The translations under genes were made by a program, and so were the position numbers. Below, piece after piece: positions 4,838-14,200 of a stretch of 52,133 bases of DNA. Source of the stretch: Gracilibacillus oryzae (lineage in GTDB: Bacteria > Bacillota > Bacilli > Bacillales > Amphibacillaceae); contig NZ_ML762428.1 in the NCBI RefSeq assembly GCF_009498735.1, positions 1-52,133 of the forward strand, given 5' to 3'. Numbering within the stretch: position 1 is the first letter of the stretch; each line of letters begins with the position of its first letter. A model generated the notes under the pieces. It was not told the origin of the DNA and made no database searches. It was given only the letters and a program-made list of their open reading frames with translations.

Positions 4838-5421
4838 GCTTTTCGCTCCTTTCTTATCGCTTCGAAGAAATTGTTTAATAGTTTTTTTCCTCTTCCTGTT
4901 CCGATCGACTCTGGGTGGAATTGTAATCCGTATACTGGTAAATAGGTATGTTTCACTGCCATGATCTCGCCATCGTCCATTGCTGTTGCTGTAATTATCA
5001 GTTCTTCTGGAATTGTTTCCCGTTCTATAACTAATGAGTGATATCTCATCACTTCCAGGGGCTGCTCTAAATAGCTGAATATTTCGTCATTGCTATGTCT
5101 GATCATCGATGTTTTGCCATGTTTTATCTGTCCTGCATGGATAACTCTTGCTCCAAACGCTTCTCCGATTGCCTGATGGCCCAAACAAATGCCGAGGATT
5201 GGGAATTTTGTTGCAAGCTGCTGCACTACTTCAATACAAATCCCTGCTTCTGCCGGTGTCCCTGGACCTGGTGATAAAATAACCGCTTCAGGATTCATCA
5301 GTTCAATTTCTTTAAGGGAAGTTTTATCATTTCTGATGACTTCTACTTCCTTACCAAGTTCTGAGATATACTGATACAAGTTATAGGTGAATGAATCATA
5401 ATTATCGATTAATAAAATCAT
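4834..5421 (-). CDS. trpG: anthranilate synthase glutaminase subunit (component II)
   Basis: TrpG hydrolyses glutamine and feeds ammonia to TrpE. The class I amidotransferase triad is visible: Cys in GICLGHQAIGEAFG and His/Glu in QFHPESIGT. The length of 195 residues is standard. In B. subtilis the equivalent subunit is shared with folate synthesis and encoded outside the trp operon. Here it is inside the operon, overlapping trpE and trpD by 4 bases each, so it is probably trp-dedicated, but sharing with PabB cannot be excluded. Confidence 0.95.
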   Translation of the reverse strand: MILLIDNYDSFTYNLYQYISELGKEVEVIRNDKTSLKEIELMNPEAVILSPGPGTPAEAGICIEVVQQLATKFPILGICLGHQAIGEAFGARVIHAGQIKHGKTSMIRHSNDEIFSYLEQPLEVMRYHSLVIERETIPEELIITATAMDDGEIMAVKHTYLPVYGLQFHPESIGTGRGKKLLNNFFEAIRKERKA

Positions 5422-6797
5422 TTTTTGCTTACCTCCAATAACGATTTGGCTTTATTTAACGTTTCCTGATATTCTGATTCAGGGTTCGAGTCAAACACAA
5501 TTCCTGCACCTGCCTGCACGTAAGCTGTATTATCTTTGATTACCATTGTTCTGATCGCTAAAGCTAAGTCTAAATCCCCGTTCATATTAATATAGCCGAC
5601 TGCCCCTGCGTAAACGCCGCGTTTCTTATCTTCCAGATCGTTGATAATCTGCATTGCGCGGATCTTCGGTGCACCTGAAACGGTACCTGCCGGCAATGTC
5701 GAAACTAATGCATCTAATCCTGTGTAGTCACTTGTCAGTTGCCCATGAACCTCTGAAACAATGTGCATCACATGCTGGTACCTTTCAATTGTCATATATT
5801 TCGGAATCGTAATCGAGCCAATTTCACAAACACGGCCAAGATCATTTCTGCTCAGGTCCACAAGCATTTTATGTTCTGCCAGTTCTTTCTCATCTGCCAG
5901 TAACTCTGACGCTAACTGCTGATCTTCTTCTACCGTCTTGCCGCGCGGTCTTGTACCCGCAATTGGATTTGTGACAACATGATTGCCAGTCGTTTTAATA
6001 AGGCTTTCTGGTGATGCTCCTAAAACAAAGTAGTCATCAAAATCAATGAAATACATATATGGTGACGGGTTGGCAACTCTTAATTTCCGGTAAAATGTAA
6101 ATGGATCTGCATCAAATGTTGCTTTCATTCGCTGTGACAGCACCACTTGAAAAATATCGCCATCAACAATATGCTGTTTTGCTGTTTCTACCATTTCAAG
6201 GAATCTCTCTTTTTTAATCGATGTTTCGAAGGAAATGTTCAAATCTTCTTCCTGGCTGATTTTTTCCGGTGTTGCTATTTGATCTGTTAATGTTTGTAAC
6301 TGCTCTGTTAGGATATCTTCATTTCTGGTTCCGTCTAAATTTATTGTTAAGACGGTTACCTTCTGTTTCATGTGGTCAAAAACGATCACATCCTGGTAAA
6401 ACAGCATATGAACATCAGGCATCTCCATTTCGTCCTCAAGCAATGTACCAATATTCTCATATTGCCTGATCGCATCATATCCGATGTATCCAATTGCCCC
6501 GCCATAAAAAGCATATGGTAGATCCAGTGCAACATTTGGAATATGTGCTTTCACTGCTTCTAAAGGTAATTGCTCGACATTTTCTGTTGTCTCTTTTATA
6601 TGATTTATAATGGTTGTTTGTTTTGCTGAACCGATGATTTCTTTATAAGGGTTTAGACCAATGAACGAAAAACGGCCTTTTTCATTATGACTGCCGGAGC
6701 TTTCCAGCAGGAATTTCTTCTTGCCATTCATGCGATTAAAGACAGAAATCGGTGTAAGTGTATCCCCATTAAGTGTCATGCTTTTATAATTCACCAT
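5418..6797 (-). CDS. trpE: anthranilate synthase component I
   Basis: TrpE converts chorismate plus ammonia to anthranilate and is the committed step. The 459-residue protein has the N-terminal feedback site FLLESSGSHNEKGRFSF (the LLES tryptophan-binding motif), then the chorismate-binding domain with VVTNPIAGTRPRGKT, LAEHKMLVDLSRND, STLPAGTVSGAPKIRAM and VQAGAGIVFDSNPE. ATG 6797 is chosen because AAAAAGGAGTC precedes it; a longer frame to 6833 lacks a site. It is the first gene of the operon, with an unusually long leader upstream. Confidence 0.96.
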   Translation of the reverse strand: MVNYKSMTLNGDTLTPISVFNRMNGKKKFLLESSGSHNEKGRFSFIGLNPYKEIIGSAKQTTIINHIKETTENVEQLPLEAVKAHIPNVALDLPYAFYGGAIGYIGYDAIRQYENIGTLLEDEMEMPDVHMLFYQDVIVFDHMKQKVTVLTINLDGTRNEDILTEQLQTLTDQIATPEKISQEEDLNISFETSIKKERFLEMVETAKQHIVDGDIFQVVLSQRMKATFDADPFTFYRKLRVANPSPYMYFIDFDDYFVLGASPESLIKTTGNHVVTNPIAGTRPRGKTVEEDQQLASELLADEKELAEHKMLVDLSRNDLGRVCEIGSITIPKYMTIERYQHVMHIVSEVHGQLTSDYTGLDALVSTLPAGTVSGAPKIRAMQIINDLEDKKRGVYAGAVGYINMNGDLDLALAIRTMVIKDNTAYVQAGAGIVFDSNPESEYQETLNKAKSLLEVSKK

Positions 6798-6900
6798 AAT
6801 AATTGACTCCTTTTTGATAATTTTATTGAACAAAAATCCGCTTTGTAAGTATGATTATACTTGCTTACTAATGTACTAATTTCAAGTGTGCAATGAAGCC

Positions 6901-7022
6901 GCTGGGGAAAAACACTCGCTTTCCGTGGGCACGGCTTCAGCTAACTTGGTAAAGGAAACCACTTCACCAAGTGGATCTTCAGCTCGCGCTGTTCCCACTG
7001 GAGTCTCGCATTTTCCCCCAGC
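6901..7022. repeat. palindromic repeat element A in the trp leader
   Basis: This 122-base GC-rich segment is bounded by inverted ends GCTGGGGAAAAA and TTTTCCCCCAGC. Inside are CGCTTTCCGTGGGC, an ACTTGGT/ACCAAGT pair and CTGGAGTCTCGC. These match, from memory, a high-copy palindromic repeat of Bacillaceae genomes. It encodes no supported protein and lies within the DNA transcribed as trp leader. Confidence 0.7.
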
Positions 7023-7161
7023 TAGTTGATGCGTCCTAAACCAATAAGAGGAACGAATTTTTATTTTTATTTACAGCATTAGTGATCAATAAGTTCAAGC
7101 ACGTAAATTTTCCACCTGTAATATCAGCATTAGCAAGATATAGAGCTCGATTCCAAGTGGA

Positions 7162-7274
7162 GTAAATTAACGAAGACTCCTGCGGGATCAGAGGCCTAGA
7201 CGAGACCCCGCAGGGAGCGGTGTTTGCGACCGAGGAGGCTCGGCAGACGCCCGCGGAAAGCGAAGTTAATTTAC
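7162..7274. repeat. palindromic repeat element B in the trp leader
   Basis: This 113-base element has perfect 10-bp inverted ends (GTAAATTAAC and GTTAATTTAC). The inner part holds GACTCCTGCGGG, ACCCCGCAGGGAG, GAGGAGGCTCGG and CGCCCGCGGAAAGCG and is far more GC-rich than the flanks. It shares the CGCTTTCC/GGAAAGCG and GACTCC/GGAGTC strings with element A, so both likely belong to one family. The ~140 bases between the elements hold nothing I recognise. Confidence 0.7.
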
Positions 7275-7345
7275 GGAACGATAATCTAGCAGTATTAGAA
7301 TTAGTCATTGTCACACACCAAACATATCTGTTTATTTTCATTTCC

Positions 7346-7605
7346 TATAAAAAAATCCCTATATATACCAGCATGATATATATAGGGACGGTTATTCTGA
7401 CCGCGGTGCCACCACTATTTGAAGCTGGCTTGTGATAAGACCGGCTTCCTCTCTTGCATCCGGTAACGGGGATGAGGCGTTGCTCTATACTTATTTTCCA
7501 GAGCACTCTCCAAGGTCCATTCGGCTTAGACTGTATACTGGTTTCCACCATTCCCAGCTCTCTACAATACACGTCGTTAAGCTTACTCTTCCTTGTCAAC
7601 GATTT
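7346..7605 (-). promoter_or_regulatory. T-box riboswitch 2 (tRNA-Trp), leader-proximal to trpE
   Basis: On the minus strand the leader shows AGAGAGCTGG of stem I, the specifier context GAATGGAC with UGG (Trp) at 7519-7517, and the T-box string GGTGGCACCGCGG around 7415-7399. It ends in a terminator with arms CCCTATATATA/TATATATAGGG followed by a T run (7388-7350). Uncharged tRNA-Trp should favour the antiterminator and read-through into trp. It is the second of two units in tandem. Confidence 0.9.
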
Positions 7606-7683
7606 TTTCTATACTTTGCGCTTCAAAATTTTTATTGCATCAGGATAATTCTTTGCTGGAAATTTTATACTTTCCAAACATAT

Positions 7684-7955
7684 ACAAAAAGGGCTTCCTC
7701 TCCTTAAAAGGACGAGGAAACCCGTGGTACCACCTTTATTAACTGCAACAGCAGTTCACTAATCACGTCAAGCTTGATCGCTTATAACGCTACCCTATTG
7801 AAACGAGTGGGTTTCTCGCCAAAGCCTACTTACAGATGTGTTCGGTTTGGGGCTCGGAAGTCCATTCACTTATTTCCACACACTGGTTTGCACCAACCAC
7901 CAGCTCTCTAAAGTGCGATATTTAAGCTACTTCTCTTCGTCTTTGCCAACGTTTT
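7684..7955 (-). promoter_or_regulatory. T-box riboswitch 1 (tRNA-Trp), promoter-proximal
   Basis: The first leader has AGAGAGCTGGTGG, a specifier loop GAATGGAC with UGG at 7864-7862, the T-box GGTGGTACCACGG near 7734-7722, and a terminator with arms GGGTTTCCTC/GAGGAAGCCC followed by TTTTT (about 7722-7684). Both units read the same codon, which points to a two-step gate on trp transcription. Confidence 0.9.
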
Positions 7956-7971
7956 ATAAATTGTTGTTATC

Positions 7972-8000
7972 ATCATATTATGAATGATAGGTTTTGTCAA
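7972..8000 (-). promoter_or_regulatory. sigma-A promoter of the trp leader
   Basis: TTGACA (8000-7995), a 17-base spacer and TATGAT (7977-7972) form a near-consensus promoter. Transcription would start about 7965, just before the first T-box. There is no clear terminator between the upstream gene (stop at 8027) and this promoter. Confidence 0.85.
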
Positions 8001-8026
8001 TGCCTTTATTTAAATTTTCAGACTTT

Positions 8027-8575
8027 TCACAATTCGATTATTTCTTCTTCTATTTTCTCCCCAAGATGTCTGCCTGGCTGATCTTTAACTATCATAATAC
8101 GATCACCCTGCTGCAAATCCAGCACTTGTTTTTCTGAACCATCATGCCCTAATACATGCACACTGTCCGCATCTTGTAAGGTTGCAGAGATTACCGCTCC
8201 CTCCGATTTCAACACAATGCGGAGAAAGGGTCTTTTCTCCATTTTGACTCTTCCAATCGCAATGTTTCTCTTCTTTCCTTCAGCTGACATTACAGCAATC
8301 TGATCGCCTGGCTTCAATTCTGCTAAATAAGAAGTTTTCCCTTCGTCAGTCAGTGCATATTGATGAATGGCGCCAGCATTCACACGAAATGGCCTGGCAG
8401 GATAAGTATCTGTTGTTCTGTTCTCGGCAAGCACCAATAAGTAACCATGCCCTGTATTACCGACAAGAATTCCTTCCGTCGGCTGTAATTTGTCAACAAA
8501 ATCTAAACATACGCGTGTCCCTTCACCAATTGACTCCATTGCCACAACTTCTGCCTCTTGTAATCTGGAATCCAC
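8027..8575 (-). CDS. stand-alone C-terminal half of 3-dehydroquinate synthase II
   Basis: The 182-residue product matches, from memory of the archaeal family, only the C-terminal half of DHQ synthase II (archaeal AroB', about 360 residues). Recognisable strings are EAEVV near the N-terminus, GEGTRVCLDFVDKL, GILVGNTGHGYLLVLAE, ARPFRVNAGAIHQYAL, YLAELKPGDQI, IGRVKMEKRPFLRI and the C-terminal GRHLGEKIEEEIIE. The full archaeal enzyme makes 3-dehydroquinate by NAD-dependent oxidative deamination in an alternative shikimate entry. The GTG start at 8575 has GGAGGAAT just upstream, and the preceding sequence does not encode the missing half in frame, so this looks like a deliberate short gene. It sits directly before the Trp-regulated trp transcript. 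Whether it is catalytic, regulatory or a relic is unknown. Confidence 0.75.
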   Translation of the reverse strand: MDSRLQEAEVVAMESIGEGTRVCLDFVDKLQPTEGILVGNTGHGYLLVLAENRTTDTYPARPFRVNAGAIHQYALTDEGKTSYLAELKPGDQIAVMSAEGKKRNIAIGRVKMEKRPFLRIVLKSEGAVISATLQDADSVHVLGHDGSEKQVLDLQQGDRIMIVKDQPGRHLGEKIEEEIIEL

Positions 8576-8681
8576 TCTATTCCTCCATTCAATTTATACA
8601 ATTTTTCCACATTTTTATCATAGCTATTTATTGGACAATCATATACAATATACAGTGATTTGACAAATGGGAGGGGTATCA

Positions 8682-8789
8682 TTGCGTAAGTTATTAGTGA
8701 TGTTATTTCTTCTATTAATAGCAAGCTTTAGTATATTTGGCTACAGCAATGCAAGTCAATCCGTTGAAAACTTCGAGATTGAAGAATAG
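8682..8789 (+). CDS. small secreted peptide candidate (35 residues)
   Basis: A TTG start follows GGGAGGGGTATCA at good spacing. The product begins MRKLLVMLFLLLIASFSIFG, a basic N-end plus a strong hydrophobic core, then YSNASQSVENFEIEE. SNA-SQ is a plausible signal peptidase site, leaving a ~12-residue acidic peptide. A strong hairpin terminator follows 25 bases after the stop. I do not recognise a family. It could be an exported signalling peptide or an orphan small membrane peptide. Confidence 0.45.
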   Translation: MRKLLVMLFLLLIASFSIFGYSNASQSVENFEIEE

Positions 8790-14037: not shown

Positions 14038-14200
14038 AACTCTTATCAAGAGAGGTGGAGGGACTGGCCCTGTGATACCTCAGCAACCGTCTTACAATAG
14101 ACAAGGTGCTAATTCCAGCAAGCGACCATGCTTGAACGATGAGGAAACGATTTATTCCCATTAAGGGCCTTCATCAATCAAGATGAAGGCCCTTTTTTAT
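14038..14200 (+). promoter_or_regulatory. SAM-I (S-box) riboswitch with terminator
   Basis: The conserved S-box core is clear: CTTATCAAGAGAGGTGGAGG, then GGGACTGGCCCTGTGATACC, CAGCAACC, AAGGTGCTAATTCC and a closing ACGATGAGG. It is followed by a strong terminator, AAGGGCCTTCATC pairing with GATGAAGGCCCTT and then TTTTTAT (14163-14200). High SAM should stop transcription before yitJ and metE. Confidence 0.96.

Follow-up and report, generated by a model that had tools for sequence, protein, structure and literature searches.

What does half of an enzyme do when it is encoded by itself? Contig NZ_ML762428.1 of Gracilibacillus oryzae (assembly GCF_009498735.1, positions 1 to 52,133; this whole stretch of DNA is what we call the window) encodes, just before a tryptophan operon, a protein of 182 residues that resembles only the C-terminal half of 3-dehydroquinate (DHQ) synthase II, an archaeal-type enzyme of the shikimate pathway and the Pfam family PF01959, to which MJ1249/AroB' belongs. 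The original prediction, made from the sequence alone, saw in this half-length protein either a regulator or metabolite-binding protein of aromatic synthesis, or the partner of a separately encoded N-terminal half. We prefer to read the protein as a HINT-like descendant of DHQ synthase II that stands alone and acts on a small molecule, as an enzyme or by binding it; to this statement, taken as a whole, we give about even odds (a probability of roughly 0.5).

A C-terminal domain translated on its own

The open reading frame at positions 8027-8575 is a minus-strand one, and the plus strand across these positions has several stop codons (Table 1). Its product aligns from residue 4 to residue 181 with positions 166-343 of the 344 in the Pfam DHQS profile (E 4.5e-61), with a score of 207.1 bits against a gathering score of 22.2. 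The match to DHQ synthase II is therefore clear and, as had been predicted, extends only over the C-terminal half, the beta domain, the N-terminal barrel of the full-length form being missing. Six NCBIfam models of DHQ synthase II also aligned by their C-terminal part alone and far under their full-length cut-offs. The GTG start has a putative ribosome-binding site of its own (Table 1), which agrees with the predicted independent translation, and purine-rich sites resembling Shine-Dalgarno sequences, recognized by eye, precede the starts of many relatives. In 31 short loci, two of which are the window's own, the frames open near the same residue, often with a stop shortly upstream. A frameshifted full-length gene, the alternative raised together with the prediction, was rejected because homologues in many genera share the half-length form with close starts of their own. 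An annotation made from profile matches would call such proteins '3-dehydroquinate synthase II', a name that is in all likelihood wrong for them; a literature search for that name found, by title, no treatment of a half-length form.

The predicted place just before a trp T-box promoter was confirmed: the gene is followed by a promoter-like site, by tandem T-box leaders and by trpE. The promoter-like site next to the first leader is likely the trp promoter on the strength of its sequence; the region holds six promoter-like sites, hardly above the 4.3 expected from shuffles. Tryptophan would be the signal of both T-boxes, to judge from the genes behind them. In the window, 1194 bases separate the half-length gene from trpE, compared with 606-1080 bases in other loci without an intervening gene. 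Before trpE, at window positions 6880-7290, lies GC-rich sequence (gactcctgcgggatcagaggcctagacgagaccccgcagg...), which presumably resembles dispersed Bacillaceae repeats. Farther along the window, a SAM riboswitch of the ordinary kind (14040-14145, plus strand, 94 bits) stands ahead of a homocysteine methyltransferase/MTHFR fusion and metE.

Table 1. Positions in the window of the half-length gene, its parts and its neighbours on the way to the trp operon.
Feature	Position	Strand	Basis
Promoter-like site TTGTCA-17-TATGAT, upstream of the half-length CDS	8638..8666	-	consensus match only
GGAGG resembling a Shine-Dalgarno sequence, six bases upstream of the GTG	8582..8586	-	sequence
Half-length CDS with GTG start (C-terminal domain of DHQ synthase II as a protein of 182 aa)	8027..8575	-	ORF, Pfam, relatives
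First segment (codons 1-64), resembling intein C-terminal blocks F/G by eye	8384..8575	-	weak hhalign match; kind of the top Foldseek matches
Region like intein N2/block B (HINT-like), codons 101-170	8066..8275	-	hhalign
Promoter-like site TTGACA-17-TATGAT (11/12), between the half-length CDS and the first T-box	7972..8000	-	consensus match
T-box leader 1 (neighbour)	7705..7952	-	Rfam RF00230, 132.7 bits
T-box leader 2 (neighbour), in tandem with leader 1	7381..7608	-	Rfam RF00230, 122.7 bits
trpE, with which the downstream trp operon opens (neighbour)	5418..6833	-	Pfam PF04715, PF00425

Distribution of the half-length proteins

Half-length proteins are present in 45 of the 159 genomes of the window's family and in 17 of its 46 genera. 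We read 34 of these 45 genomes; 33 carry the half-length gene and one (G107) a remnant DHQS match of 80 residues only. The 33 genomes provided 34 loci, one genome (G008) having an identical gene near the ends of two contigs (L049 and L050); a repeat, or an overlap in the assembly, is the probable cause. In a sample of the order, 38 of 397 genomes had a DHQS match; it was full length in five of them, and in the other 33 it started no earlier than profile position 133. The sample of the phylum yielded matches in 20 of 398 genomes, namely the window's half-length protein, 17 in frames of 371-392 codons, a partial one of 309 codons and a weak one below the cut-off; in the class of a Thiosymbion, five of 321 genomes matched, with the half-length protein of the Thiosymbion and four long ones.

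A scan of titled genomes, in which only carriers were counted, gave 65 loci, nearly all of them from Bacilli and there from genera that are haloalkaliphilic or fond of salt, such as Gracilibacillus, Aquibacillus, Amphibacillus, Halobacillus, Salimicrobium and Marinococcus. The outliers were Candidatus Thiosymbion, a Mariprofundus bin, a Verrucomicrobia bin labelled GSL and two records named Paenibacillus. The scan relied on one half-specific peptide pattern, so that the full spread cannot be read from it. A search of plasmids returned 13 records, counted regardless of length; all are below 60% identity and bear the name 3-dehydroquinate synthase II.

Conservation and selection

The gene is real, conserved and under purifying selection. 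An alignment of 47 half-length proteins, chosen from 57 rows after exclusion of close or duplicate rows and of a broken draft copy (L055, from G022), has 36 invariant columns, and its members are 43-70% identical to the window protein. Residue counts were made over all 57 rows, including L055 and the identical pair L049/L050 from one genome, and compared with 12 full-length rows, from which L117 was left out as no ORF there matched the half-length protein. Thirty-six positions keep the same residue in both groups (in at least 85% of the 57 and at least 80% of the 12). Other positions are fixed in all 57 half-length rows and differ in the full-length ones: G42 (Ser in 12 of 12), Y58 (Met in 11 of 12), P59 (Asn in 10 of 12), E86 (Asp in 11 of 12) and S138 (His in 12 of 12). 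Some half-like residues can be seen by eye in gammaproteobacterial full-length rows (L189-L191), so not every difference between the two groups is tied to length. In an unrooted tree of 56 half-length proteins and 16 full-length C-terminal domains, whose bootstrap had not settled, the two groups are split by a branch with support of 98/95, and the half-length proteins are probably of single origin.

Within the genus, the dN/dS of the half-length gene is about 0.13, a value computable for 14 of 36 pairs. Five trp genes have a dN/dS of 0.03-0.08, and the gene encoding a LysM-3D protein has one of 0.17; these values are rough, as synonymous sites are near saturation. Such selection, together with a half-length form that is common to many genera with close starts, and with residues fixed otherwise than in full-length relatives, argues strongly against a decaying, functionless remnant of DHQ synthase II. 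The missing N-terminal domain and the short match in G107 are what decay would leave behind, and we consider this explanation very improbable.

Neighbourhood and the link to tryptophan genes

Of the 33 family genomes that we read, 30 have the half-length gene upstream of trpE on the same strand, and between the two genes a pattern search found either a single T-box motif or two in all 30 linked loci; Rfam recognized 28 T-boxes in 14 of 20 short loci and none in the remaining six. This arrangement, which several genomes keep despite a helicase gene and a second gene in between, is what would be expected if the half-length protein sensed a metabolite of the shikimate or tryptophan pathway and controlled the trp operon next to it, or the enzymes encoded there. 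We find this unlikely on the evidence of loci where the two are apart. Three genomes of the same family (L058, L059 and L061) carry the gene away from trp, and in other families seven trp clusters were absent from the stretches read in all 23 loci, which represent 23 of 26 half-carrying genomes. Conversely, 18 relatives without the gene at their trp locus keep trpE and T-box motifs there, five of them (L223, L229, L234, L238 and L239) with the upstream LysM-3D gene in place, and trpA exceeds its cut-off in 143 of the 159 family genomes, against 45 with the half-length gene. Since the trp neighbourhood is kept in relatives from which the gene is absent, the gene looks to have been gained into, or lost from, an older neighbourhood. 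The link is most simply explained by descent from one insertion site; the neighbouring trp genes are probably not the reason for the presence of the half-length gene, and its product is probably not a trp regulator.

Control of the half-length gene itself by the T-boxes was rejected, as it precedes the leaders in 30 of 30 linked loci. The part of the original prediction that proposed a metabolite-binding protein falls within the class of role that we prefer, which includes an enzymatic one, but the special tie to aromatic synthesis is not supported: the trp neighbourhood appeared in a single family and at none of the 23 loci of other families, the gene stands before the T-boxes, and relatives lacking it retain their trp genes.

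No neighbour gene is common to the half-length loci of all families. In one other family (f175), an ABC-type ATPase recurs along with further genes (clusters 10, 28 and 33-35) at several loci. A DEAD-box helicase cluster occurs one or two genes after the half-length gene in seven loci of the window's family (L039, L040, L042, L043, L051, L052 and L064) and three to eight genes before it in seven f175 loci (L086, L088, L090, L092, L093, L097 and L098); the helicases of the two groups are only 34-51% identical and are possibly paralogues. Six loci from other bacteria (L147, L150, L168, L173, L174 and L184) revealed no shared neighbour by eye.

Divergent from the half-length gene, at window positions 8682-8789 on the plus strand, is a conserved ORF of 35-48 residues (MRKLLVxLFLLLIxSFSVxGY...), found in 27 of 34 family loci, and in one more by a second search, mostly 90-160 bases from the start of the half-length gene (for example at L033:10545 and L047:9538). 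It seems to encode a small peptide, membrane-bound or secreted, that annotation has missed. A pairing of the two genes was rejected, as the small ORF is also found at the trp loci of L238 and L239, where the half-length gene is absent.

Separation from the parent enzyme and its partners

The half-length protein is not the DHQ synthase of the organism, and its replacement of AroB was rejected: classical AroB (PF01761) is above cut-off in 159 of 159 family genomes, including its own. The predicted N-terminal partner was not found either. A search of the own genome (53 contigs, 4.63 Mb) with the DHQS family at E of up to 10 returned this gene as its single match, seven named half-carrying genomes had no N-terminal half at E of up to 0.01, and in the 33 half-carrying genomes of the order all matches (E of up to 0.001) start at profile position 133 or later. 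At these limits, a separate N-terminal half is absent from the half-carrying genomes searched, and we reject it.

The missing domain could still be supplied in trans by a barrel protein unrelated to the N-terminal domain of DHQ synthase II, which would rebuild a two-domain enzyme. Full-length relatives carry the domain fused to a predicted TIM-barrel, so a barrel-facing surface may persist in the half-length form; TrpC, TrpF and TrpA are barrels. We think such a subunit improbable, given the absence of any PF01959 N-terminal half in the genomes searched, a domain that is predicted to fold well alone (see below), and the fact that, outside the trp operon, no barrel was noticed among the neighbours, which are mostly unannotated.

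Full-length and half-length genes also keep different company. A DeoC-type aldolase cluster is present in 13 of 13 full-length loci (L108-L120) versus none of 57 half-length loci; in the 12 neighbourhoods inspected the aldolase, typed by Pfam, adjoins the full-length gene. An aldolase next to DHQS relatives fits two-step ADTH or aminohydroxybenzoate routes. A search of the own genome with one bacterial query gave no close copy of the aldolase (best E 0.0055), and so no MJ0400-like partner. Gammaproteobacterial full-length relatives with some half-like residues (L242, about 6800-7600; L243, about 7300-8120) appear near metK- and ahcY-like genes, and L243 also near a metF-like gene, all named by eye; this neighbourhood may hint at a substrate, and it led to no conclusion on role.

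Predicted fold and likeness to inteins

AlphaFold2 predicted from the 47 half-length proteins a single all-beta domain (mean pLDDT 93.5, pTM 0.90). The model of a full-length protein, made from 12 sequences and poorer (pLDDT 77.0), has an alpha/beta domain and, after it, strands in a series like that of the half-length model; the PDB entries that match it best are, by title, TIM-barrel proteins, and there is no intein among the 50 matches listed. For the half-length model, the first five Foldseek matches (5ol1, 5ol5, 5ol7, 5ol6 and 5i0a) are all inteins, each with a probability of 1.00, and three more inteins (1.00, 0.33 and 0.69) are among the 50 listed, where non-inteins reach at most 0.14. 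The similarity is moderate: the best E value (7.8e-4) is the only one below 0.001, and the TM-scores of the five, by query, are 0.39-0.51 at an rmsd of 4.6-7.1 A, which makes the intein likeness a lead rather than a proof. The first four matches are SICLOPPS constructs. In such constructs the C-part of an intein precedes its N-part (PMC3762901).

As a separate test, we built one profile for each of the two splicing segments, N-terminal and C-terminal, from 30 intein loci. The half-length family matched the N-terminal profile with P 5.9e-5 and the full-length C-domains with P 0.0006. Of 61 other families taken from these loci, the full-length DHQS family itself scored best (0.0019), followed by one at 0.0046 over ten columns. 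Residues 101-170 matched the block-B half of the profile (P 4.5e-6), with none of 149 control windows as good, and residues 61-106 matched the same half (P 2.7e-5) over 13 columns around a GD motif, but not the block-A half (P 0.13, 48 of 150 controls as good). The sequence therefore backs a block-B region and not a block A. Residues 1-64 matched the C-terminal profile weakly (P 0.0049 over nine columns, one of 150 controls as good), and the full-length C-domains did not match it (P 0.079). Around the GD motif there is an internal repeat, residues 61-122 resembling 122-182 (P 2.3e-4), which would fit the pseudo-symmetry of HINT domains.

The resemblance to inteins could instead be a convergence of small beta folds, with the half-length protein having an unrelated fold of its own. 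The TM-scores are moderate and block A has no counterpart. Single-sequence Pfam scans found Hint only at E 0.012, in four of 47 members, and unrelated families equalled or surpassed it (SURNod19 0.0014, PUA 0.0054, KOW5_SPT5 0.0069); in an NCBIfam scan an unrelated model (0.0015) ties with an intein-containing one (0.0018). A profile search of PDB sequences gave 11 matches up to E 10 without an intein, the best being a designed repeat protein that sums weak repeats, and of two other PDB sequence searches one found nothing and the other five weak matches, with no convincing relative. Against convergence stand the Foldseek list, headed by inteins well above every non-intein, the separate profile test that picks the intein family over its controls, and the GD-motif repeat. 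We hold convergence to be a real possibility, though one with less than an even chance.

In our view, the evidence supports, but does not prove, that the C-terminal domain of DHQ synthase II has a HINT fold, probably circularly permuted and without splicing residues. The probable permutation is read from the kind of the top Foldseek matches and, by eye, from the segments. In a correspondence also made by eye, the presumed first intein residue is N66 and the presumed block-B His is S138, each in 57 of 57 rows; the half-length proteins would thus have neither the Cys or Ser nucleophile nor the block-B His. With an invariant Asn at the one place and a Ser at the other, splicing by the half-length protein appears unlikely.

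Proposed role and comparison with known systems

On the preferred reading, that of a free-standing small-molecule enzyme or binding protein, the half-length protein would keep the conserved residues of the parent enzyme as a pocket. This pocket might include R21, C23, D25, E51, R61, R64, N66, H71, Y73 and Y83, and further R109, K111, E113, R115, Q134, the PGRH stretch and E181. With its own fixed changes (among them G42, Y58, P59 and S138), the half-length protein could alone convert or bind a small metabolite; its invariant polar residues fit a binding protein as well as an enzyme. A more far-reaching proposal, which we put forward only tentatively, would make the C-terminal domain of DHQ synthase II a metabolic relative of inteins that does not splice and is circularly permuted by nature; the half-length proteins would then be cases in which this HINT-type domain acts alone on small molecules. 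Literature pairing DHQS with inteins was, by title, unrelated, and a search combining DHQS with 'hint domain' gave no match. If the HINT relation holds, a domain of an enzyme of primary metabolism shares the fold of protein-splicing elements, and the origin of inteins gains a testable link to metabolism. At 182 residues, and in a family without a convincing PDB relative by sequence, the window protein is a convenient target for a first structure.

Compared with DHQ synthase II, the half-length protein corresponds over residues 4-181 to the C-terminal half and has the 36 conserved positions in common with it. Unlike the full-length enzyme, it has no N-terminal TIM-barrel domain and no adjacent aldolase, it occurs alongside classical AroB, and it has S138 where all full-length rows have His. 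The 3,4-AHBA synthases of the BagC/FevH type (NF041224) are also matched in their C-terminal half (E 1.9e-37), and they share a context with the full-length Bacillota relatives, which adjoin a DeoC-type aldolase, the known partner in 3,4-AHBA pathways; the half-length protein differs in scoring 128.9 bits, where the cut-off is 750, and in the lack of that aldolase from its 57 loci. To the HINT superfamily (inteins and Hedgehog autoprocessing domains), the half-length protein is likened by a predicted fold whose nearest matches are inteins, by the block-B-like region and by the GD-motif repeat; it differs in N66 at the first position and Ser at the block-B His, both assigned by eye, and in an order of segments that is seemingly permuted.
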